From assembly GCA_938092065.1 (NCBI GenBank), contig CALKND010000003.1:1-64000 (forward strand): a DNA stretch of 64,000 nt, written 5' to 3'. Source of the stretch: an uncultured Rhodospirillales bacterium. Lineage in GTDB: Bacteria > Pseudomonadota > Alphaproteobacteria > Rhodospirillales > JABHCV01. A program made the position numbers and the translations under genes. Shown one piece after another: positions 17,968 to 46,645 of this stretch (within the stretch, counting starts at the first letter, position 1; the number at the start of each line of letters is the position of its first letter). The notes under the pieces are model-generated. The model had not been told where the DNA came from, did not search any database, and worked only from the letters and a program-made list of their open reading frames with translations.

Positions 17968-19368
17968 ATGTTCCGCGCCGTTTGGTTTATGTTATTACTT
18001 GGTATTTTGGCCATAACGGCCATGTGGTTTGCAGATAATCCGGGCCAGGTCAGTGTGACTTGGCATGGATATGTCATTGAAACATCGGCGGCGGTATCGG
18101 TTGGCGCAATAGCGACTATTGCCGTTCTATCTGCCCTTATTTATCGCCTTTGGGTTTTTATTCGTGGCGTTCCTGCTGGAATCTCGTGGTTTCGCGGAGA
18201 AGGTCGTCGTCGTCGAGGTTATTTGGCACTTAGCCGGGGTATGGTTGCAGTGGCAGCAGGTGATCCTGGTGAGGCCCGTCGGCAGGCTGGGTGGGCTAAT
18301 AATCTACTAGAAGAGCCGTCACTTACCATGTTGCTATCAGCTCAATCCGCACAACTCGCAGGAGATGAAGACTCTGCTCATAAATTTTTTACCAAAATGC
18401 TAGAAAACCCTGATACAGAATTTCTTGGTTTGCGTGGGTTGCTTAACCAGGCAACAAAAAATGGAGATAACTATCAGGCTTTAAAATGGGTCCGCCGAGC
18501 ATACCAATTGAAGCCCGAGAGTGATTGGGTAGCACGCACCATGTTTGATCTTGCTGCTCGGGCAGGATTGTGGAGCGAAGCCTCTAGTGCTTTGGCCACT
18601 GCCGCTCGAAAAAAGCAAGTTAATTCTGCAGAGGCAAAACATTCTAGAGCAGTTCTATATCATCAAATGAGTTTGGAGGCAGAAGCATCTTGTGATAACG
18701 CCAAAGCTCTAAAGCTATCAAAAAAAGCCGTTAAGGAAGAACTTGAATTTGTCCCGGCCCAGTTACATTTGGCCCATCTGTTGATGTCTTCTGGAAAGCA
18801 AAACAAAGCCTTCATAACCTTAGAAACCGCATGGGCAGCTACTCCTCATCCTGGAATAGCTCACGCTTATTTGTCGTTTACTGAAGCTAATGATGCCATG
18901 GCGCGCATGAAGGCGGCACACAAACTAGCAGCGCTAAATCCGAAACATTTGGCCACAAAGTTGATGTTAGCTAACTGCGCCCTCAATGCAGGACTTGGGG
19001 GGGATGCCCGTAAGATTCTGGAAGAGGTTAGTGCCTTAGATGAAGCAGTCACAAGCAATTACTGCCAGTTGATGGCGAAGGTAGAAGAAGCTGAGCATTC
19101 AGACATAATTGCGGCCCGGGAGTGGTTAGTCCGTGCTGCCAATGCTGACGCTGACCCGTCATGGGTTTGTCAGGATTGTGGCAATGCAGCAGACACTTGG
19201 TCGTCCCTTTGTGGCGCTTGTCGCAGTTTTGACAAATTTCAGTGGCGGCGTCCTTCCCGTGTTCCTGGCTTAAGTGCCCCCATCGATGATGACCCAAAAG
19301 CACCACGTTTAGTTTCTCCTGGCACTCGTCTGGCACAGGAAATTGACGCGAATGGCATCGAGCATTAG
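17968..19368 (+). CDS. hemY: HemY-like TPR membrane protein
   Basis: 466-residue protein with the HemY_N domain (two membrane segments at ~3-22 and ~40-65, followed by GYLALSRGMVAVAAGDPGEARRQA) and a large TPR region. The C-terminus carries two CxxC pairs (VCQDCGN and LCGACRS), a rubredoxin-like metal knuckle resembling that of LapB/YciM. The family is conserved beside hemC/hemD but its biochemical role is unresolved. It should not be confused with Gram-positive protoporphyrinogen oxidase HemY. It lies 20 bases after mic60, in the same operon. Confidence 0.9.
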   Translation: MFRAVWFMLLLGILAITAMWFADNPGQVSVTWHGYVIETSAAVSVGAIATIAVLSALIYRLWVFIRGVPAGISWFRGEGRRRRGYLALSRGMVAVAAGDPGEARRQAGWANNLLEEPSLTMLLSAQSAQLAGDEDSAHKFFTKMLENPDTEFLGLRGLLNQATKNGDNYQALKWVRRAYQLKPESDWVARTMFDLAARAGLWSEASSALATAARKKQVNSAEAKHSRAVLYHQMSLEAEASCDNAKALKLSKKAVKEELEFVPAQLHLAHLLMSSGKQNKAFITLETAWAATPHPGIAHAYLSFTEANDAMARMKAAHKLAALNPKHLATKLMLANCALNAGLGGDARKILEEVSALDEAVTSNYCQLMAKVEEAEHSDIIAAREWLVRAANADADPSWVCQDCGNAADTWSSLCGACRSFDKFQWRRPSRVPGLSAPIDDDPKAPRLVSPGTRLAQEIDANGIEH

Positions 19369-19386: not shown

Positions 19387-19424
19387 GCCGCCTTAGCTCA
19401 GTTGGCAGGTCATCGCTTTCGTAA
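19387..19424 (+). pseudogene. Degenerate 5' half of a tRNA-Thr(CGU) gene
   Basis: GCCGCCTTAGCTCAGTTGG... runs through the acceptor 5' strand, D arm and anticodon loop (TTTCGTAA), then homology stops. It matches 30 of 38 positions of the intact tRNA-Thr(CGU) at 19574 up to the CGTAA of the anticodon loop. The D stem is broken (GGTC where GAGC is expected) and there is no T arm or 3' acceptor strand, so it cannot be functional. It begins 18 bases after the hemY stop. Confidence 0.75.
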
Positions 19425-19573
19425 TAAATGCCTCTTCCAAAAAGACAATATTTATCAGTTAGTTATGACATAAACGAAATTCATGTGAATGATATGTGTA
19501 TTATGATCATTTCATTTGTGTGAAGAAACTGGATTACCCAGATCGGTTAAGATATACAGGGACCGTGTGACTA

Positions 19574-19646
19574 GCCCTCTTAGCTCAGTTGGTAGAGCAC
19601 AGCATTCGTAATGCTGGGGTCAGGTGTTCGAATCACCTAGAGGGCA
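19574..19646 (+). tRNA. tRNA-Thr (anticodon CGU)
   Basis: Complete cloverleaf. Acceptor GCCCTCT pairs with AGAGGGC, the D arm is GCTC..GAGC, the anticodon stem CAGCA/TGCTG has loop TTCGTAA (anticodon CGU, reading ACG), and the T arm is AGGTG-TTCGAAT-CACCT. Discriminator is A and CCA is not encoded. Its 3' half is repeated imperfectly about 490 bases downstream. Confidence 0.95.
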
Positions 19647-19681
19647 CACATCTATTCCAATATTTTAAAAATGAGAAATTC

Positions 19682-20083
19682 ATGACCCCCACATTTGATA
19701 AACTTTTTGAAACAACTGAAAATAATTTAGCTCTGTTAAAAGTTCTTGCTGAAAATAGTTTTGATTCAATATTAGTTACTGACGCAACGGTTAAGGGAAA
19801 GATTATCTATGCAAACAAATCTTTTGAGAAACTTACTGGACATCTCTCTTCTGAAGTTATTGGAAAAACCCCTCGTATCCTTCAGGGCAAGGCTACAGAT
19901 AAGAAAGTAATTGATCGCCTTACTAAGGCGCTCAAATCAGGAACTAAGTTTGAAGGAAAGGCCATCAACTATAAAAAGGATGGAACACCATTTATTATGT
20001 ATTGGAGGGTCCTTCCTATTAAAGTTGCAAAAAAGGTAAAATTATGGGTTGCCATCCAAAGAGAGGGGTCGGCGATTATATAA
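19682..20083 (+). CDS. Stand-alone PAS domain protein
   Basis: 133-residue protein that is almost entirely one PAS domain (SFDSILVTDATVKGKIIYANKSFEKLTG, EVIGKTPRILQGKATDKK, NYKKDGTPFIMYWRVLPI). The region equivalent to the LOV flavin-cysteine motif (NCRFLQ) reads TPRILQ, so it is not a photoactive LOV domain by the canonical chemistry. No output domain is attached, so it would have to work with a separate partner. The track ORF runs back through the tRNA. The ATG at 19682 with GAGAAA just upstream is the realistic start. The gene is A/T-rich, lysine-rich, and flanked by tRNA-Thr and a copy of the tRNA 3' half. Confidence 0.8.
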   Translation: MTPTFDKLFETTENNLALLKVLAENSFDSILVTDATVKGKIIYANKSFEKLTGHLSSEVIGKTPRILQGKATDKKVIDRLTKALKSGTKFEGKAINYKKDGTPFIMYWRVLPIKVAKKVKLWVAIQREGSAII

Positions 20084-20098
20084 TGAAAGTATCAAACA

Positions 20099-20140
20099 AA
20101 TGCTGGGGGTCAGGTGTTTGAATTACCTAGAGGTCAACAT
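20099..20140 (+). repeat. Displaced copy of tRNA-Thr 3' half (possible attachment-site remnant)
   Basis: AATGCTGGGGGTCAGGTG... repeats the intact tRNA sequence from the anticodon 3' stem to past the acceptor end (19610-19651), with three substitutions and two single-base indels. A tRNA gene followed downstream by a copy of its 3' half is the classic footprint of site-specific integration. No integrase gene is present between the two copies. Confidence 0.7.
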
Positions 20141-20332
20141 TTCTCTTCCCTTCTGGGGGTCTACAATTAAATCTACCAATTAAGGAAACTAGCCTTGCCC
20201 AGTTTTAGAGGGGGGGTACTTTTTCCAGAGACACCTTATTGAGTTTATAGATTAGACTATTGATTGCGTTCGCCTGCTAGCACAGTGGTTGTTCTAATTT
20301 ACACGGTAACAAACATTCATTATGCTGAAAAA

Positions 20333-20351
20333 GGCTATTTATAAAATAGCC
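20333..20351. terminator. Perfect 8-bp hairpin upstream of motA
   Basis: GGCTATTT-ATA-AAATAGCC. It is preceded on the plus strand by AAAAA, so on the minus strand a T5 tract follows it. On the plus strand it is followed by ATTACTTTTAAT. It could insulate motA from upstream transcription or lie in the motA leader. Low GC makes it a weak terminator. Confidence 0.45.
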
Positions 20352-20393
20352 ATTACTTTTAATAGTATTAAAAAAAGAAAAGATACTAAATAG

Positions 20394-21164
20394 ATGAACT
20401 TAGATTTTGCGACCCTCGCAGGGTTAATATTTGGGGTTACTATTGTAACTGTAGCTATTATCTCTGGATCTCCCTTGAATATTTTTCTCAATTTGCCAGG
20501 CTTTATGATTGTTGCAGGCGGTACTCTCGCAGCAACAATGATAAAATTTCCTATAACAGGTGTTTTTATTAGTCTTCCACTTGGGCTCAAAGCTGCATTT
20601 TCTAATGATAAAACTAAGGCTAGTGACTATATACGGCTAACTGTTAAATTAGTTAAGAAGGCAAGAAAAGCGGGATTGCAGTCACTCGAAAAAGAAAAAA
20701 TACCAAATGCTTTTTACAAGAAAGGCATACAACTCTGCGCTGATGGCAAAGATGCCGAATTCATTCGCAAAGTTTTAGTCGAAGAAATTCAGCAAGAGAT
20801 TAGACGTGAGCAAGTGGGCGCTAACGTGTTTAGGGCTATCGGTGACAGCGCACCTGCATTTGGAATGTTTGGCACTCTCGTTGGTTTGATTCAAATGTTA
20901 AGTAACATGACTGATCCTGCCACTATTGGGCCAGCGATGGCCGTTGCGATGCTAACCACGCTATACGGTGTCTTAATTTCGCAACTTCTAGCTTATCCAA
21001 TAAGCGAAAAACTGATCATGAAAATTGATCGCCAAAGATCCCTGAGTGAGCTAATTCTGGAATGTATAGTTCAAATTCAGCAACTTCAGAATCCTACTGC
21101 ACTTCAGGATATACTCGAGCCATATCTTCCTGGTAACCAGCGTAAAATAGAAGAGGTTAGGTAA
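20394..21164 (+). CDS. motA: Flagellar-type stator protein MotA/PomA
   Basis: 256-residue MotA/PomA family inner membrane protein, the ion-channel half of a flagellar stator. There are four hydrophobic segments (e.g. ATLAGLIFGVTIVTVAIIS, and GDSAPAFGMFGTLVGLIQML with the conserved proline/glycine region) and a cytoplasmic loop rich in charge (~70-145). Length and the N-terminal GLIFG segment are closer to PomA and short MotA than to the 290-residue E. coli type. It pairs with motB, with a 5-base gap. No other flagellar or chemotaxis gene is in the window. Composition is A/T-rich relative to neighbours. Confidence 0.92.
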   Translation: MNLDFATLAGLIFGVTIVTVAIISGSPLNIFLNLPGFMIVAGGTLAATMIKFPITGVFISLPLGLKAAFSNDKTKASDYIRLTVKLVKKARKAGLQSLEKEKIPNAFYKKGIQLCADGKDAEFIRKVLVEEIQQEIRREQVGANVFRAIGDSAPAFGMFGTLVGLIQMLSNMTDPATIGPAMAVAMLTTLYGVLISQLLAYPISEKLIMKIDRQRSLSELILECIVQIQQLQNPTALQDILEPYLPGNQRKIEEVR

Positions 21165-21169
21165 GTTAC

Positions 21170-21883
21170 TTGGAAGTTAAACAAACTAATGATGAAAAGT
21201 GGTTGGTCACGTTTGCCGATCTTATGTCTCTTCTTTTCGCATTATTTGTATTGATTAACTCATTTTCTGAAGTCGATGCTGATTCCTTCAAAAAGAATGC
21301 AGGCCCAATGTCTCAAGCGTTCAACGGGTCTGTAAAAGAAAGTGATATTACCTACACGGGGAAAAAGAAAAAGCCAAAAGTAGTTGAAAAAGAGATAGAA
21401 CTCACAAAACTAAACATTAAAAATAAAGCACCTACTGATCCTTATCTCCTTTTAGTTGAGCAAACAAAACTTTTAAAAATATTAAAAGTTAAACTTAAGA
21501 GTGAGATCAAAACCAAAAAATGGATTGTTGCTGTGAGAGATGGAAGCATTTTTATTAGCATGCCGGGCGATACAGTTTTTTTATCTGGCAGCGCACAATT
21601 AACCAATGCAGTAAAAAAATCATTAGACCGCATGATTCTGGTCTTTTCTCAGGCAAGAGGCTCAATCGAAATTATAGGGCATACTGATGACGTTCCGATA
21701 GCCACTTCAAGGTTTCCATCAAACTGGGTCCTGTCTTCAGCACGAGCAAGCTCAGTGGCAACCTATTTGCTCTCAAAGTCACGAATTAAAAAATCCAGAA
21801 TGAGTGTAGTAGGTAGGGCAGACACTCAACCAGTAAGCAAAAATAAAGAAGAAAATAGAAGAATAGAAATAAAAGTAATGTAA
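21170..21883 (+). CDS. motB: Flagellar-type stator protein MotB/PomB
   Basis: 237-residue stator B subunit. The N-terminal membrane helix contains the proton/sodium-binding aspartate in LVTFADLMSLLFALFVLIN. A lysine-rich linker follows, then a C-terminal OmpA-like peptidoglycan-binding domain (EIIGHTDDVPIATSRFPSN, LSSARASSVATYLL). It is shorter than many MotB/PomB proteins, mainly in the linker. Start TTG 21170 is the only reasonable one in frame before the helix. Ion specificity cannot be decided from sequence here. The stop codon lies inside a 10-bp inverted repeat. Confidence 0.9.
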   Translation: MEVKQTNDEKWLVTFADLMSLLFALFVLINSFSEVDADSFKKNAGPMSQAFNGSVKESDITYTGKKKKPKVVEKEIELTKLNIKNKAPTDPYLLLVEQTKLLKILKVKLKSEIKTKKWIVAVRDGSIFISMPGDTVFLSGSAQLTNAVKKSLDRMILVFSQARGSIEIIGHTDDVPIATSRFPSNWVLSSARASSVATYLLSKSRIKKSRMSVVGRADTQPVSKNKEENRRIEIKVM

Positions 21884-21897
21884 CTTCTACTTTTATT
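21868..21897. terminator. 10-bp AT-rich inverted repeat at the motB stop, between convergent genes
   Basis: AATAAAAGTA and TACTTTTATT are perfect reverse complements separated by 10 bases, overlapping the end of motB. A long T-rich run follows near 21924-21937, ahead of the convergent LysR gene. It is a plausible bidirectional transcript end, although the stem is almost all A-T. Confidence 0.4.
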
Positions 21898-39507: not shown

Positions 39508-42500
39508 TCAAGATGCGTACTGATCCAGTAATTCATCAGACAAAGTCATAAAACATATAGTATAGGTCCAAGCAAGAATACACACGACTTTTCGCTCTGG
39601 ATATATTTCTCGCAACAAAGCGCGGTAAATGGCCATTTGCACCAAATATACCGGAGAGACACTTTCAGCATTCAGAGGTGGTGGCCTGCTAGTCTTGTAA
39701 TCAATGATGGTGATTGTCTCGTCGCTGATAGCCAGACGGTCAATTCGACCAGAAACTATGCGTCCCCCAACCATCCCGTTAATGGGAACTTCAGCTAAAG
39801 AGCTGGGGCCGAACAAGGACTTAAATTCGGGGTCGTCCAAAACGCTCAGAACCTCTCTCGCGATAGCTTTCTGTTGGTCCTCATCAAGTCCATGTACGGG
39901 GCGTGCCAAATATCCAACTGTCGCCTTAGCCCATTTTTCAGAACCTAGACTTGGTAAGCCTTCCAGCAGGCGATGTATCAGGCTACCACGCTTGAAGTGC
40001 GCCCCATCGTTCCCATCAAATGGCGATCGCACGGCGGGCTCCTCGTCTTTTGAAAATCTGGATGGGCTTAGGGGCGTCGTGGGCTCCGGTTCCCGTGGCG
40101 CTGGCCTTAAAGCCCAATCCGGTGTGCTGAGAGCATTAAACATCTCGCTGCTAGCAGTCTCAGGTTTACCGTCGGGGTACTCTTCTTGCGGGTTAGCTAA
40201 TCTGAGAATGCTCTCCCCGGTTGCAGTGAGGGCTTCTTCTGCAATCTCCTTAAAAGCCGGTTTAATCAGGTTGTACCAACAACCATCGCTTGGTTTGTTT
40301 TTACCCTCCCAGCCGCCGATGTACAAGCGGTCCCGGGCTCGGGTCATGGCCACATAAAGTAGGCGGCGGTATTCCTGGGCACGTAATTGTTTGTTTTCCT
40401 CAGCCAAGGCGGTGGTGCGACTTTCTTCCTGATCTTTTGCCGGGGCCCATAGAAGGGCTGGTTCAGGGTGATGGACCCAACGCAACTTTGATTCGTGGCG
40501 GGATGTTGGCACAGAACACGTATCGGGCAGAAAAACAATATTACCCTGTAACCCCTTTGACCCATGAATAGTCATGACGCGGACTTCGCCCCTGCCCTGC
40601 TCCAAATCGCGTTTTATCTGGGTGCGTCCGGCCTCGACCCAGCTCAGAAAGCCCTGCAGGGATGGGACATGCTCTCGCTCAAAATCAAGAGTCAGACTTA
40701 AAAATTCATCTATGGGATCATCTGCTTCCTGGCCCAGTCTTGCCAGCAGATCCCTGCGTGCGCCTTCCGGGCCAAGCAGTTGGGCATAAAATTCATAGGG
40801 TGGCATATAGTCGGCGCGGGACAGCAATTGTGACAAACGATCAAAGGCCCCTAGGTATTTTGTATTGTCCGCGCTGGCTTTTTTCAGCGCCGCCCACAAT
40901 GTGTCGGGCCTTTGATAGGCGAGTGGGAATAGATCATCATTGTCCGTAAAGCCAAACAGCGGGCCCTTCAGGACTACGGCTAGGTTTAGATCGTCTTCAG
41001 GCAACAGCACGAAGCGTCCCAGTGCTATAAGGTCCATCACCGCCAACTGTTCGGTCAAGACCATACGGTCGGCCCCGGCGACGGGAATGTCGTTTTGCTT
41101 AAGGGTGTTGACCATCTTTTCTGCAAAGCTACCGCGTTGGCGTACCAAAATCATAATGTCGCTCTCGCGTATGGGGCGCCCCGCAGAAAGTAGTTCTTCG
41201 CCACCTTCAAGCCAGTCTTTGATGGTGCCCGCAATGCGCCCAGCCATGCGGTCTTCTGGGCTGTCCACGGGAAGACGATCGAGCGGTGCATCCCAAGGTT
41301 TGACCTCGATTGCTTCGCCCTTCTTGATAGTCGGCCACAATTCCACAAGCCCGGCCTGTCCGTGGCGTTCCCAGTGATGGATGATTGGCTTTTCATTGAA
41401 GGTGAGCCCTTCACGGGCGACTTCACTTTCAAAAACCTTATCTACGGTTTTCAGAATCGATGCGGTCGAACGATAGGACCTTTCCAGTTCGACCGGCTCA
41501 AAAGCTTTGCCAGCTTTCAACGCTTTCTTAAAAAAATACTGGCTTGTATGGCCGAACATGAAGGGGTCGGCACCTTGAAAACTGTAGATGGATTGTTTTT
41601 CGTCACCAACGGCGAAGACCGTACGCTCGCCCTCGCGCGCGCCAAGACCTGCAAAAAAGTCTCCGGCCAGGGCCCTGATGACATCCCATTGATCGGCGCT
41701 GGTATCCTGGGCCTCATCGACTAGAACATGATCCAGTCCGCCATCTAGCTTATAGTGAACCCACGAGGCACCGCCATCGGCTTGTAATAGGTCGCGGGCC
41801 TTCAGGATCAAGTCGTCATAATCGAGCAAGGAGCGGGCATTTTTTAGCTGCTCGAAGGCATCAAGCAACCGGTGACCCAAATGAATAAGTGCCTGGCTTG
41901 CTTGGAATACGCCGATGCAGCGCAGTCGCTCGTTGATGGCAGCAATGCGCCGTTGTTCGTCGAGCAAGGCCTTTAGCAAATCCGGGTTGGCCTCTGCTAT
42001 TTTGTTGGTCATCAGTTTCTTGCGAAGCCCGTTGTCGTTTGTGAGAAAAAAAGGTTTGTAGATTTCATCAAAGTTTGCGGCCCGGAAAACCTCGTCACTC
42101 TCGAGCCAGCCTCGTAGGGTTTTGGCCTTAGTTTTTTCAGGGGCAGTGCCTCCGGATAGAGCCTCTGTCACGGCGAACATGGCATTCACATCAAAGTTGG
42201 CTTCGTCACAGGCATGATCAAGAATACTTTTCAGTGTTTCATCTTGTTTAAGACCCAATGCTCGACGCGACGCATCAATAACAGCGTCTATGCTGCCATA
42301 GCGCCTGAACAGGCTGCGTAAATGGGTGCGCCGGAAAGAAAGATCGCTCATCAGACTGTTGAAGCCTTCTTCGTTCAGAAGCCCAGCCATCAGTGTCAAG
42401 GCATTGGCGACCTGTCCAGAAACCCCTATGTGGGCCTGAACCAAAAGACGATCGCGCGCTTCGTTCATAAGCTCGGCTGCGGTGCGCTCGTCGATGACGG

Positions 42501-42945
42501 AAAAATGCGGTGCGATACCGGCCTCAATAGGGAAACGCCCAAGCAAGGATTCACAAAAAGCGTGTATGGTGCGAATTTTAAGACCGCCCGGTACATCAAG
42601 GGTTTCGGCGAACAAACGCCTTGCCGGGGCCAGTAAGGTTTTCTCGGGGGCCTTGCCGATCAAGGCGGTAATCTCACGGATGAGCACGTCGTCATTTGCC
42701 ATTGCCCATCCACCAAGGCGATCGGAAAGTCGGGTTGCCATTTCTGCCGCCGCCGCCTTGGTGAAGGTCAGGCACAAAATTCGCTTTGGCTTGACGCCGT
42801 CCAGAAGCAGACGGGTGATGCGATCAGTTAAGACCTGGGTTTTACCGGTCCCGGCGTTGGCGGATACCCAGACCGAACTTTGCGGATCAGCGGCAGTGAC
42901 CTGGGCTGTGGTGCGAACCTGTGGGGTGCGGTCGCTGTTGCTCAT
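39508..42945 (-). CDS. addA: Double-strand break repair helicase-nuclease AddA
   Basis: 1145-residue UvrD-like helicase subunit of the AddAB recombination complex. Walker A is ANAGTGKTQVLTDR (Lys35), Walker B is VDEAQDTSADQW, and further helicase motifs include VAMTRARDRLYIGG. The C-terminal PD-(D/E)xK nuclease core is seen in ITIIDYKTSRPPP with the downstream QMAIYRALL. It overlaps addB by 4 bases. The N-terminal three quarters are clearly GC-richer than the flanking genes. Confidence 0.95.
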   Translation of the reverse strand: MSNSDRTPQVRTTAQVTAADPQSSVWVSANAGTGKTQVLTDRITRLLLDGVKPKRILCLTFTKAAAAEMATRLSDRLGGWAMANDDVLIREITALIGKAPEKTLLAPARRLFAETLDVPGGLKIRTIHAFCESLLGRFPIEAGIAPHFSVIDERTAAELMNEARDRLLVQAHIGVSGQVANALTLMAGLLNEEGFNSLMSDLSFRRTHLRSLFRRYGSIDAVIDASRRALGLKQDETLKSILDHACDEANFDVNAMFAVTEALSGGTAPEKTKAKTLRGWLESDEVFRAANFDEIYKPFFLTNDNGLRKKLMTNKIAEANPDLLKALLDEQRRIAAINERLRCIGVFQASQALIHLGHRLLDAFEQLKNARSLLDYDDLILKARDLLQADGGASWVHYKLDGGLDHVLVDEAQDTSADQWDVIRALAGDFFAGLGAREGERTVFAVGDEKQSIYSFQGADPFMFGHTSQYFFKKALKAGKAFEPVELERSYRSTASILKTVDKVFESEVAREGLTFNEKPIIHHWERHGQAGLVELWPTIKKGEAIEVKPWDAPLDRLPVDSPEDRMAGRIAGTIKDWLEGGEELLSAGRPIRESDIMILVRQRGSFAEKMVNTLKQNDIPVAGADRMVLTEQLAVMDLIALGRFVLLPEDDLNLAVVLKGPLFGFTDNDDLFPLAYQRPDTLWAALKKASADNTKYLGAFDRLSQLLSRADYMPPYEFYAQLLGPEGARRDLLARLGQEADDPIDEFLSLTLDFEREHVPSLQGFLSWVEAGRTQIKRDLEQGRGEVRVMTIHGSKGLQGNIVFLPDTCSVPTSRHESKLRWVHHPEPALLWAPAKDQEESRTTALAEENKQLRAQEYRRLLYVAMTRARDRLYIGGWEGKNKPSDGCWYNLIKPAFKEIAEEALTATGESILRLANPQEEYPDGKPETASSEMFNALSTPDWALRPAPREPEPTTPLSPSRFSKDEEPAVRSPFDGNDGAHFKRGSLIHRLLEGLPSLGSEKWAKATVGYLARPVHGLDEDQQKAIAREVLSVLDDPEFKSLFGPSSLAEVPINGMVGGRIVSGRIDRLAISDETITIIDYKTSRPPPLNAESVSPVYLVQMAIYRALLREIYPERKVVCILAWTYTICFMTLSDELLDQYAS

Positions 42946-45917
42946 TGATCGCCCCCCTCATTGTCGTCACCAGCCATCCATTCCTTAACCCGCGCCAGAT
43001 GATCGTAGTCACCAAAACGGCTTAAAAACTGGGGTACCGGGCGCGATAGATAGGGGGTCGCCTCATCATCAAAATCGGCGACCCGCTTTTTTAGTCCTTG
43101 AAGGGCGTCTGCTGCCAGGGTCTCAACACCCTCAAAAATACCGCTTTCCTCGCCCGGAGTCTTCCCCCCCGATAGCTTCATATAAACAAGCTCGGAGACA
43201 TAGGTTGCGTCGATTCCTTCAAAGTTTCCTTGGGCTGCAATTGCCGCTTCCAGGGTCAACTGCGGGGTCAGACCACTCTTCATCTGCTTTTTTGTCGGAA
43301 CGCCGCCTGTTTTGTAATCGATGATTGCGAGACTGCCATCGGGCGCACGGTCGATGCGGTCAGCCCGGGCATTCAATGTGAAGTTGCCACCGGGGGCAGT
43401 AAAAGTTATTTCGCCGCTGGTTTCCGTGCTTAAGGGGATGCGCCCTGCGTTGCGTTGCGTGGTTTCGTTTTTGACAAACCAGTGGGCAATACGTTCAAAG
43501 CGGGGCCACCAGAAAGCCCGGATGGAGGGGTTTCGCATTTTCTCATCAAAGACGTGGGTGCCTATTTTGATTAATTCATCAAAGGCGTCATCAGGCAAGT
43601 CGTCGGGGTATTTTTTGACGAAGCAATCCAGTACTTCATGAACAACAGTGCCACGATCGGCAGCACCCGGTTCCGCATCGATAGGGTCGAGCACTTTGAG
43701 CCTGAGTATGTTGCGGGCGTAGATGGAGTATGGATCGCGTATCCAGGTTTCTATCCTTGAAACAGAAAGTCCACGCGGCCGGCTTTCAAGTGGTGGGGTC
43801 GCGAGTGGTTCTTTCGGATCAAGATATTTTTCTGGCCTATCCAAGCCTGCAAAAAGTGCGTTCAATTTTGAATTTGGTTGAAGTTGTGCTTCCAGGGGTG
43901 TGCCACTTAAGAGAGTTTTTATGCGTTGAAGCCAGCGCGACGGGACGGTCGGTGAGCCGCCACTGCGTGCGGCCCGGGTTAAGATAACTTCCTTGGCACA
44001 GGCGGCCTGGGTGAAGTCGTGGGCGGTAAGGCCCAAGCGTCGCTCCGGTTGTGGTAGGCCGAATTTGTCCAGCATGGGGCGGCTCATCCAGGGGCTGGCC
44101 GGGGCTTCGGGCGGCCAGCTATTCTCGTTAAGGCCGCCTAGAATCATTACATCAACCTGCTGCAAGCGCGCTTCAAGAAGGCCCCATATGTGCAGGCGCG
44201 GGTGGCGTCCATAGGCCGGGCGATGGACACGTGGGCTAAGCAGGACATCAAGAAGGGCCGGATAATGCCCGGCTGTGATCGCCCCAAAGGTGTCCGATGC
44301 CTCGTGTAGCTCGGCAAAGAACAAGGCCAAGGCCTCGCCATCTTCACCGCCCCATAGCCGAGCCTTGCCGTCTTTTTCATCTGTGGACGCCAATTTTTCG
44401 GCCAGTTGTACATGGCTTGCCAAAAGTTCTTTTAAGGGAACTTGAGGTTGCTCAAACATAAAGGCGAAGGGGGAAATAATTTCATCCAGGCCATCAATCA
44501 ACTGTTCCAGCCCATGGATCTTTTTTAGATCGGTTTCTTGTAAGGCGTTCCTTAATGCGCCACACCCACGCCCTGGACGGGGACCGCGCAAAAGGGTTAA
44601 TTCAAGACGCCGCACCAGTTTTCTGAATTCCGCCGGGTTCATGCCGCTCGCAGTGTAAGGATGTTTCAAAAGACCAAGCAATGGTATCGGGGCCAGCCCG
44701 TCTGCTGCGACGCGTGCGAATTGGAGCATAAAAGCTCCGGGCGGGGTTTCCGCCAGGGGACGCCCGGCGGAATCGTCAATGTTAATTTTCCAACGTGCCA
44801 GCTCGGCAGTGACGCGCCGCGCAAGGGTTCGATCCGGCGTCACAAGGGCTGCCGTCATGCCGTCGGTCTCCAGGGTTTCGCGCATGGCCAAGGCAATCAT
44901 TCCAGCTTCTGCTTTTTCGTTCCCGGCCTCTATCAAAGTGACCCCATGCAAAGCCTGGGAATCAGGTTTAGTTATGGTTTGCCAGTTATCGGTGCCGCTG
45001 GCGGGAACTAGGGCATGGTTTAGAAGCCGGGCGCGTGATGCAGGCGCAATGGCTTTGACGGGCGATGGCCAGTCGGCAACGTCGCTGCGATCAACTTGTA
45101 GGTGCTCAAGCAGATGGGCCAAGCCATATTGCGGGTGGCTTGGCTCCAGGGCCTGCCAGATTGTATTGTCTGCATCCTTATCAAGACCAGGAAGAACGAC
45201 CGAACCGTTCGCCATTTGACTGATGGTTTTTAAAAGATCCGCGGTGGCCGGGATTGACCCTGTAGAACCGGCGGCGATAACCGGGCCGCGTGGCAGGCTT
45301 TGCTGCCATAGTCTGGTTTGGGCATCGAGTAGGCGATTGCGTCGTTCCGCCGGATCAAGGACGCCCTGCTCAGCTAAAATATTTGGCCAGTGCTGACTTA
45401 AGATGGCGAGAAATTCCAAGGTCTGTTGCCAATGTTTGGATAGCCCTGCTTCTTCAACCAAAGTGTCAAGTTTATCAAAAGACAGCCGTTCGGTTTGCAC
45501 CTGATCGAGAAGGCGGGCCAGTTCCTGGGCTAGTCTTGCCGCCTGATCGATTGTTGTTACGCTGTCTTTTCTTGCCATAATCATGCGCGCCAGCAACAGT
45601 TGGCGTTGTAAGCCAGTGATCGCCGGGGCGATTTCGAGTGAAGCCTCACCGGCCAACTCACCAGTCCCGCTTAAGACCAACTCATCCTCATCAATGTCAC
45701 CAAGGGACATCATCCTAGGCAGCAACATGGGCTTGCCCCCGGCGAAGCGGAGGAAGGCTTCGCTTAAAGAGCGACAGGCCCTACGCGTTGGCAGCAAAAT
45801 GGTAGTTTCGACAAGAAATTCTGGTTTACTTGCATAGCGCTCAAGAATTCCAGCAGCCAGAGTGTCAAGAAATGGAAGCCCTGCGCCGATATTGAAGACT
45901 GTTGATTTTCCTGTCAT
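42942..45917 (-). CDS. addB: Double-strand break repair protein AddB
   Basis: 991-residue alphaproteobacterial-type AddB, the inactivated-helicase/nuclease partner of AddA. The N-terminus is a degenerate helicase domain (ILLPTRRACRSLSEAFLR). The C-terminal nuclease motif is in LAIIDYKTGGVPTKKQM, and the nearby RAYG-type WGLLEARLQQVDVMILGGLNENSWP is typical. Its stop overlaps the addA start and its own start overlaps the murU stop by 4 bases, so the block is one operon. GC content is visibly elevated (about 60-67% in sampled lines). Confidence 0.94.
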   Translation of the reverse strand: MTGKSTVFNIGAGLPFLDTLAAGILERYASKPEFLVETTILLPTRRACRSLSEAFLRFAGGKPMLLPRMMSLGDIDEDELVLSGTGELAGEASLEIAPAITGLQRQLLLARMIMARKDSVTTIDQAARLAQELARLLDQVQTERLSFDKLDTLVEEAGLSKHWQQTLEFLAILSQHWPNILAEQGVLDPAERRNRLLDAQTRLWQQSLPRGPVIAAGSTGSIPATADLLKTISQMANGSVVLPGLDKDADNTIWQALEPSHPQYGLAHLLEHLQVDRSDVADWPSPVKAIAPASRARLLNHALVPASGTDNWQTITKPDSQALHGVTLIEAGNEKAEAGMIALAMRETLETDGMTAALVTPDRTLARRVTAELARWKINIDDSAGRPLAETPPGAFMLQFARVAADGLAPIPLLGLLKHPYTASGMNPAEFRKLVRRLELTLLRGPRPGRGCGALRNALQETDLKKIHGLEQLIDGLDEIISPFAFMFEQPQVPLKELLASHVQLAEKLASTDEKDGKARLWGGEDGEALALFFAELHEASDTFGAITAGHYPALLDVLLSPRVHRPAYGRHPRLHIWGLLEARLQQVDVMILGGLNENSWPPEAPASPWMSRPMLDKFGLPQPERRLGLTAHDFTQAACAKEVILTRAARSGGSPTVPSRWLQRIKTLLSGTPLEAQLQPNSKLNALFAGLDRPEKYLDPKEPLATPPLESRPRGLSVSRIETWIRDPYSIYARNILRLKVLDPIDAEPGAADRGTVVHEVLDCFVKKYPDDLPDDAFDELIKIGTHVFDEKMRNPSIRAFWWPRFERIAHWFVKNETTQRNAGRIPLSTETSGEITFTAPGGNFTLNARADRIDRAPDGSLAIIDYKTGGVPTKKQMKSGLTPQLTLEAAIAAQGNFEGIDATYVSELVYMKLSGGKTPGEESGIFEGVETLAADALQGLKKRVADFDDEATPYLSRPVPQFLSRFGDYDHLARVKEWMAGDDNEGGDQ

Positions 45918-46645
45918 CTGCGTTTTATTCCGGAGTAACGCTTTCGCATATAATCTTCAGCTTCATCAAGAGCCCTCGGGGTCCCCACATGGAACCATTC
46001 ACCATCATGAACAATGCCGTAAAGCTTCCCCCTTTCAATCGCTTTATCATAAAGTACATTCAGAGAGAATGGGCCTTCAGGAGCCTTCTTGAAAAGCCTT
46101 GGATGTAGGATCTGAAGGCCAGTGAATAAATAAGGCGATAGCTCGCTTTCAGGGCGCCTTGACAACACTCCTAGGGGGTCCATATCAAAATCACCTAAGC
46201 CTTGATAGCCGTATGCATCGACGGTTGAATGCAGCATCAGTAGAGCATCCATCTTGTCTGCGTCCCAGTGACGGGCCATGCGACTTACCGCGTCCTGAGA
46301 TCCGTTCAGCCATAGGGTGTCGCCGTTGCTAGCAAAAAACGGTTCATTCCTAAATTTGCTGAGAGCATTTCTTATGCCACCACCAGTCTCAAGAATTTCA
46401 TCTTCAAGCGAAAACAAAATTTCTACATCAACGCGTTTTTTTAGATGCTTATGAATCTGTTCACTTAAGTGATGAGTATTGACAACAAACGTTTCCACAC
46501 CGCCTTCATGCAGTCGGTCGATGGCACGGTCAATCAAAGTTCGACCGAGAACCTTGACCAATGGTTTGGGTGTGGTATCCGTGATTGGGCGCAAACGTAC
46601 ACCAAACCCAGCGGCTAGAACCATCGCACGTTTTATATCTTTCAC
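45914..46645 (-). CDS. murU: N-acetylmuramate alpha-1-phosphate uridylyltransferase MurU-like nucleotidyltransferase
   Basis: 243-residue sugar-1-phosphate nucleotidyltransferase with the signature AMVLAAGFGVRLRPITDTTPKPLVKV. Single-domain length and adjacency to an AmgK-type kinase match the MurU-AmgK bypass that recycles MurNAc directly to UDP-MurNAc. Without that context it would be annotated as a mannose-1-phosphate guanylyltransferase-like enzyme. It is co-transcribed with amgK (4-base overlap) and addB (4-base overlap). Confidence 0.87.
   Translation of the reverse strand: MKDIKRAMVLAAGFGVRLRPITDTTPKPLVKVLGRTLIDRAIDRLHEGGVETFVVNTHHLSEQIHKHLKKRVDVEILFSLEDEILETGGGIRNALSKFRNEPFFASNGDTLWLNGSQDAVSRMARHWDADKMDALLMLHSTVDAYGYQGLGDFDMDPLGVLSRRPESELSPYLFTGLQILHPRLFKKAPEGPFSLNVLYDKAIERGKLYGIVHDGEWFHVGTPRALDEAEDYMRKRYSGIKRR

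Follow-up and report, generated by a model that had tools for sequence, protein, structure and literature searches.

Remnants of putative small integrative elements carrying a whole tRNA-Thr(CGU) gene downstream of hemY in an uncultured Rhodospirillales bacterium

Three tRNA-Thr(CGU) pieces behind hemY

The analyzed stretch of 64,000 nucleotides, referred to as the window, carries hemY at positions 17968–19368 (HemY_N, 1.3e-23), which is conserved upstream of the locus and serves as its anchor. All window features described here are located on the forward strand. As the initial annotation had stated, hemY is followed by three pieces of tRNA-Thr(CGU) in one row; all of them are present, and each lies far beyond chance expectation. 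While this arrangement stands, the exact ends had to be shifted: the 5' relic comprises 39 nt and extends to 19425, the 3' piece comprises 38 nt and extends to 20136.

The first piece, located directly after hemY (19387–19425), is the 5' half of the native tRNA-Thr(CGU), covering positions 1–39 and breaking off just past the anticodon loop (90%, E=2.8e-10, with the native tRNA-Thr(CGU) of relatives as query and the 64-kb window as search space). Its acceptor strand GCCGCCT is of the native type. The second piece is a complete tRNA-Thr(CGU) at 19574–19646 (ARAGORN; Rfam RF00005, 70.3 bits) with the acceptor GCCCTCT/AGAGGGC, which differs from the native gene in the acceptor, anticodon and T stems. 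It lacks the CCA that 27 of the 29 distinct tRNA genes read in this genome encode. It is also the sole Thr(CGU) gene detected: a search of the assembly for a second full copy, which would have spoken against the initial annotation, found none, and a native 3' half was likewise not encountered there. A tRNA-Thr(UGU) gene is present, and thus ACG codons are probably still readable by wobble. The third piece (20099–20136) is a displaced 3' half that covers positions 37–73 and matches the complete tRNA in type (89%, E=1.2e-8 with the complete tRNA as reference); homology beyond the tRNA end is not significant. A further match to the anticodon core at 20314–20325 was too weak for use.

The region 19426–21890 has a GC content of 0.377 versus 0.458 for the whole window, the lowest among window stretches of equal length; the strongest tetranucleotide deviation within the window is found at 40801–46400. 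Between the complete tRNA and the 3' half lies a PAS gene of 133 aa (19682–20083; Pfam PAS_9, 6.7e-13) with a GC content of 0.36 versus 0.46 for the window. The AT-rich character of this gene had been recognized correctly, yet the AT-rich stretch also includes motA and motB (20394–21883; Pfam; GC 0.41 and 0.36). By sequence, the PAS protein is LOV-like without the photoactive cysteine, which is absent in all 80 homologues compared; these carry the motif GKTPRILQG or a close variant. Records with 62–82% identity are labelled Alpha-, Beta- and Gammaproteobacteria, Acidobacteria, Gemmatimonadetes and Nitrospira, although such labels may be erroneous for metagenome bins. Conservation of the family is high over multiple phyla of aquatic bacteria, and a photolyase-like gene is found close to it in some genomes. 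The neighbours of the PAS gene in other genomes have no relatives in the window, and no PAS relatives were found in viral contigs.

The native state is preserved in the same-genus genomes G001–G003. As expected from the initial annotation, comparison of their hemY-downstream regions revealed a single intact tRNA-Thr(CGU) with encoded CCA, separated from hemY by approximately 20–40 nt. Its acceptor is GCCGCCT/AGGCGGC in G002 and G003, and GCCGCGT/ACGCGGC in G001.

A left-end module and split tRNA genes in other families

The stretch of approximately 148 nt that separates the relic from the complete tRNA (19426–19573) is a conserved module, regarded as the left end of an element. A profile built solely from the corresponding modules of G483, G021 and G688, genomes of three other families of the order, matches the window at 19452–19563 (E=1.6e-10), and such leave-one-out profiles recover every module (G021 2e-9, G688 7.7e-9, G483 1.5e-12). 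No module was detected by profile at the other loci searched, including about 60 further tRNA-Thr(CGU) genes. Module lengths are 147–149 nt, with 173 nt in G021 and approximately 141 nt in an older unit of G688; 5' halves follow at a spacing of 187 and 185 bp in the row of G483 and of 187 bp in the window.

The module contains the core motif TCATGTGAATGATATGTGTATT with the small inverted repeat TCAT/ATGA at 19481–19502, 56 nt past A38 of the relic; the 22-nt motif TCRTGTGAAYGATATGTGYATT occurs at this identical offset in window and G021. For the core motif, 0.01 matches with at most three mismatches are expected in the window. A search of 317 genomes of the order with the motif only, by which the split tRNA-Thr(CGU) genes of G483 and G688 were located, yielded four matches with at most two mismatches, namely window, G021, G483 and G688. 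In all four cases a tRNA-Thr(CGU) 5' half that stops at the anticodon loop lies ahead of the motif, while this applies to none of the nine matches with three mismatches. The spacer alignment was not equalled in any of 50,000 shuffles. Three direct repeats of the type TGTGNA start at 19483, 19494 and 19518 (19483–19529); G483 has them at the same positions relative to the relic, with the same spacings of 11 and 24 bp, and they are candidate arm sites of a recombinase.

Several further matches were set aside. A motif match in G098 from a class-wide scan is not located at a tRNA and was taken as chance, and the 29 short matches to the motif core in viral contigs are neither preceded by a tRNA 5' half at a distance of 56 nt nor accompanied by the remaining module. 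On contig 118 of G680 (L259, 1632–1832), a tRNA-Thr(CGU) 5' half with the same break position lies 87 nt before a complete gene. Since the module is absent, this locus was not counted as a member; it is a different or decayed case.

The structure of the insertion is best seen in G688 and G483. In G688, the upstream 5' half GCCCACT pairs with the downstream 3' half AGTGGGC at 7/7 positions, the stem CGACA with TGTCG at 5/5, and the joined halves form a tRNA-Thr(CGU) accepted by ARAGORN. The 1,929 bp in between hold the module, another complete tRNA-Thr(CGU) with the acceptor GCCGTTG/CAACGGC, an ORF of 100 aa and a 334-aa gene for an NMT1-like receptor. The outer halves of G483 likewise pair 7/7 and 5/5 across 1.38 kb, and ARAGORN accepts the joined tRNA; the interval contains two modules, an intron-interrupted tRNA-Thr(CGU) and an ORF of 93 aa. 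In both genomes the outer halves pair while the inner tRNA is complete and different, and thus a resident tRNA was split, both halves were displaced and a whole tRNA was supplied. G021 shows a 5' relic followed by a complete, different tRNA-Thr(CGU), both halves of which differ from the tRNA of its genus. An uninterrupted copy is found in G041 of the same genus, with a 5' half identical to the relic at 38/38 positions. The junctions share ATTCGTAA(T), which is the anticodon loop. No conservation of right ends was found between the element loci. All element-bearing genomes are draft assemblies, some of them metagenomic.

The interrupting intron of G483 is a group I intron of 211 nt (contig 47, L275, 4250–4460), with an Rfam score of 54.6 bits that exceeds the gathering score. 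It is positioned between U36 and A37, and ARAGORN finds the tRNA gene only after splicing. Our literature search found no case of a group I intron in a bacterial tRNA-Thr.

The complete tRNA of the window is identical to the module-preceded, split tRNA of G688 at 67/73 positions, and the six differences form three compensated pairs. Compared to the gene of G003, which belongs to the window's own genus, approximately 10 positions differ; both counts were made by hand. The split G688 tRNA is the closest sequence seen, nearer than the gene of the own genus. The 5' half of the window is native, and the complete tRNA is foreign. Exact scans of the genome collection and of viral contigs gave no match to the foreign tRNA, and blastn against phages and plasmids revealed general tRNA similarity only.

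Proposed element and rival explanations

We consider it likely that the locus is a remnant of small integrative elements, nested in the window, which target the anticodon loop of tRNA-Thr(CGU) and carry a replacement tRNA. Such an element, free of an integrase, would combine the left end of approximately 148 nt and its phased direct repeats with a whole tRNA-Thr(CGU) gene and one or two small genes. A tyrosine recombinase acting in trans may have recombined it into the anticodon loop. The host tRNA would thereby be split, its 5' half remaining upstream and its 3' half being shifted past the cargo, and the tRNA of the element would take over, probably expressed from the left-end module.

Much of the initial annotation is retained by this reading. 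Integration at the anticodon loop agrees with the break of the relic and with the junctions of G688 and G483, and replacement of the native tRNA by an incoming one agrees with a native relic beside a foreign gene that is the only Thr(CGU) gene found. What has to be given up is the idea that integration rebuilt the tRNA in the usual way from a native half and an island half, as the related loci show a complete tRNA approximately 148 nt behind the left end and both host halves displaced. The search for an integrase also ended as had been anticipated: no tyrosine integrase is left on the window contig. The other element contigs hold none either, all PF00589 matches in the five genomes searched being located on different contigs. 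Neither a recombinase nor an autonomous relative was found, and excision was not seen.

In contrast to G688 and G483, the window itself has no matching native pair of halves. Here, the 3' half pairs at 6/7 and 5/5 positions with the foreign 5' half that is part of the complete tRNA, but at just 4/7 and 3/5 with the native relic. Thus, the 3' half derives from an earlier element tRNA of the same type, and at least two insertions are needed. Most likely two nested elements were involved. The older one would have left behind a box at 20196 and perhaps motAB, which composition and position mark as probable outer-element cargo. This box (20196–20223), located beyond the 3' half, matches a sequence inside the G483 element (26/28 identical apart from one gap; 0/1000 shuffles). 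It is taken as a remnant and also points to an outer element that perhaps carried motAB. The younger element would have introduced the PAS gene together with the present tRNA, thereby displacing the 3' half of the older one. One unit of approximately 187 bp, relic plus module, would later have been lost, probably via repeat recombination; G483 holds one 5' half too many, which suggests that the number of such units can change. With the native 3' half gone, the tRNA of the element would now be the host's only gene for this isoacceptor.

Three other histories were weighed. Ordinary tRNA islands could have produced the locus if they had the minority layout in which the island supplies a new 5' half with promoter and the old half is displaced upstream; the island interior would later have been deleted to approximately 148 bp, and a second ordinary island of the 3' type would have brought the PAS gene. 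Precedents exist, since Islander lists 159 islands with 5' fragments versus 3760 with 3' fragments (PMC4383910), and ordinary 3' fragments do occur at tRNA-Thr(CGU) in G077, G024 and G043. This history is nevertheless unlikely, because in G688 and G483 the two outer halves fit each other and enclose a tRNA of which both halves are foreign, as are those of the complete tRNA of G021 relative to its genus, and because the nearly constant module length is not explained by random deletion.

We regard a transposon-like insertion with a target duplication of 8–9 bp (ATTCGTAAT) and a chance preference for the anticodon loop as less probable still. The 8–9 bp common to both junctions would fit; however, site and tRNA are always the same, terminal inverted repeats were not seen by eye at the ends of G483, and phased direct repeats are present. 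Moreover, what the junctions share is the anticodon loop, where tyrosine recombinases usually have their overlap (PMC8371274). A history free of mobile DNA, in which the tRNA was duplicated in tandem and the additional copies decayed, is the least credible of the three and very improbable. It could draw on the tandem units of 187 and 185 bp in G483, but the paired outer halves of G688 and G483 have already largely refuted it, and it is also at odds with the single copies in relatives, the different acceptor stems of relic and complete gene, the recurrence of breaks at position 38–39, the foreign cargo between the halves and the lack of the module at other loci searched.

Other tRNA insertion sites were encountered on the way. 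Ordinary insertions at tRNA-Thr(CGU) leave extra 3' parts approximately 1–8 kb downstream in the three genomes named above; contig 159 of G043 (L036), with a complete gene and two 3' parts approximately 2 and 8 kb downstream, is a serial ordinary insertion site. A phage-labelled record contains, by eye, an ORF resembling a tyrosine-integrase start shortly behind tRNA-Thr(CGU), and G007 (L233, 1701–1730) has an inverted 5' part (positions 1–30) approximately 130 nt behind the complete gene. The window's genome, G000, has an older island at tRNA-Arg(CCG) (contig 31, L114, 1596–7848) in which the native tRNA is accompanied by two radical SAM/B12-binding genes, an integrase that is broken, and a tRNA-Arg(CCG) copy that is nearly complete but lacks CCA. 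Its contigs 22 and 36 (L121, 554–607; L122, 649–687), where 3' parts of tRNA-Arg(UCU) and tRNA-Arg(ACG) lie near tyrosine-integrase genes, are further insertion sites.

Relation to known islands and significance

Islands in the sense of Islander carry an integrase and regenerate their target by means of a tRNA fragment (PMC4383910). The proposed elements share with them the anticodon-loop insertion and tRNA fragments at the expected sides: an intact tRNA is accompanied by cognate fragments on the same strand, 5' upstream or 3' downstream. They differ in the lack of an internal integrase, in their length of 0.67 kb (window), 1.38 kb (G483) and 1.93 kb (G688) instead of 2–200 kb, and in carrying a whole tRNA with both host halves displaced instead of regenerating it from a host and an island half. 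Tycheposons, as far as the descriptions consulted go (PMC10872708, PMC11389934), likewise occur in aquatic bacteria, carry cargo and are bordered by a tRNA, but span 4–200 kb and have a tyrosine recombinase. Additive flexible islands (PMC10872708) resemble our loci in that small insertions follow one another behind a tRNA, the smallest being 330 bp with a single gene. Their repeats are 3' ends only, the last 20 nt of tRNA-Lys, whereas here a 5' half, a module and a whole tRNA are found.

Our literature search found no description of an element carrying a complete tRNA, although the original tycheposon paper or Williams 2002 may contain one. With somewhat less assurance than for the locus itself, we favour the view that these are undescribed, integrase-less mini-islands of Alphaproteobacteria, which carry one or two small genes and a whole tRNA-Thr(CGU) behind a conserved end of 148 nt, are mobilized in trans, nest at the anticodon loop, and become locked in once the host halves decay. 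Island finders that demand an integrase and at least 2 kb would miss elements of this kind.

The common view of islands in tRNA genes holds that the host is spared because a matching half restores the target. A whole tRNA gene on the element would free it from the need for matching host sequence, and the host would come to depend on the element's tRNA. This would explain the in-place replacement of a conserved tRNA gene by a foreign one. Furthermore, the module could mark very small gene transfers, in which a LOV-like sensor or a solute receptor is moved as a single cargo gene.
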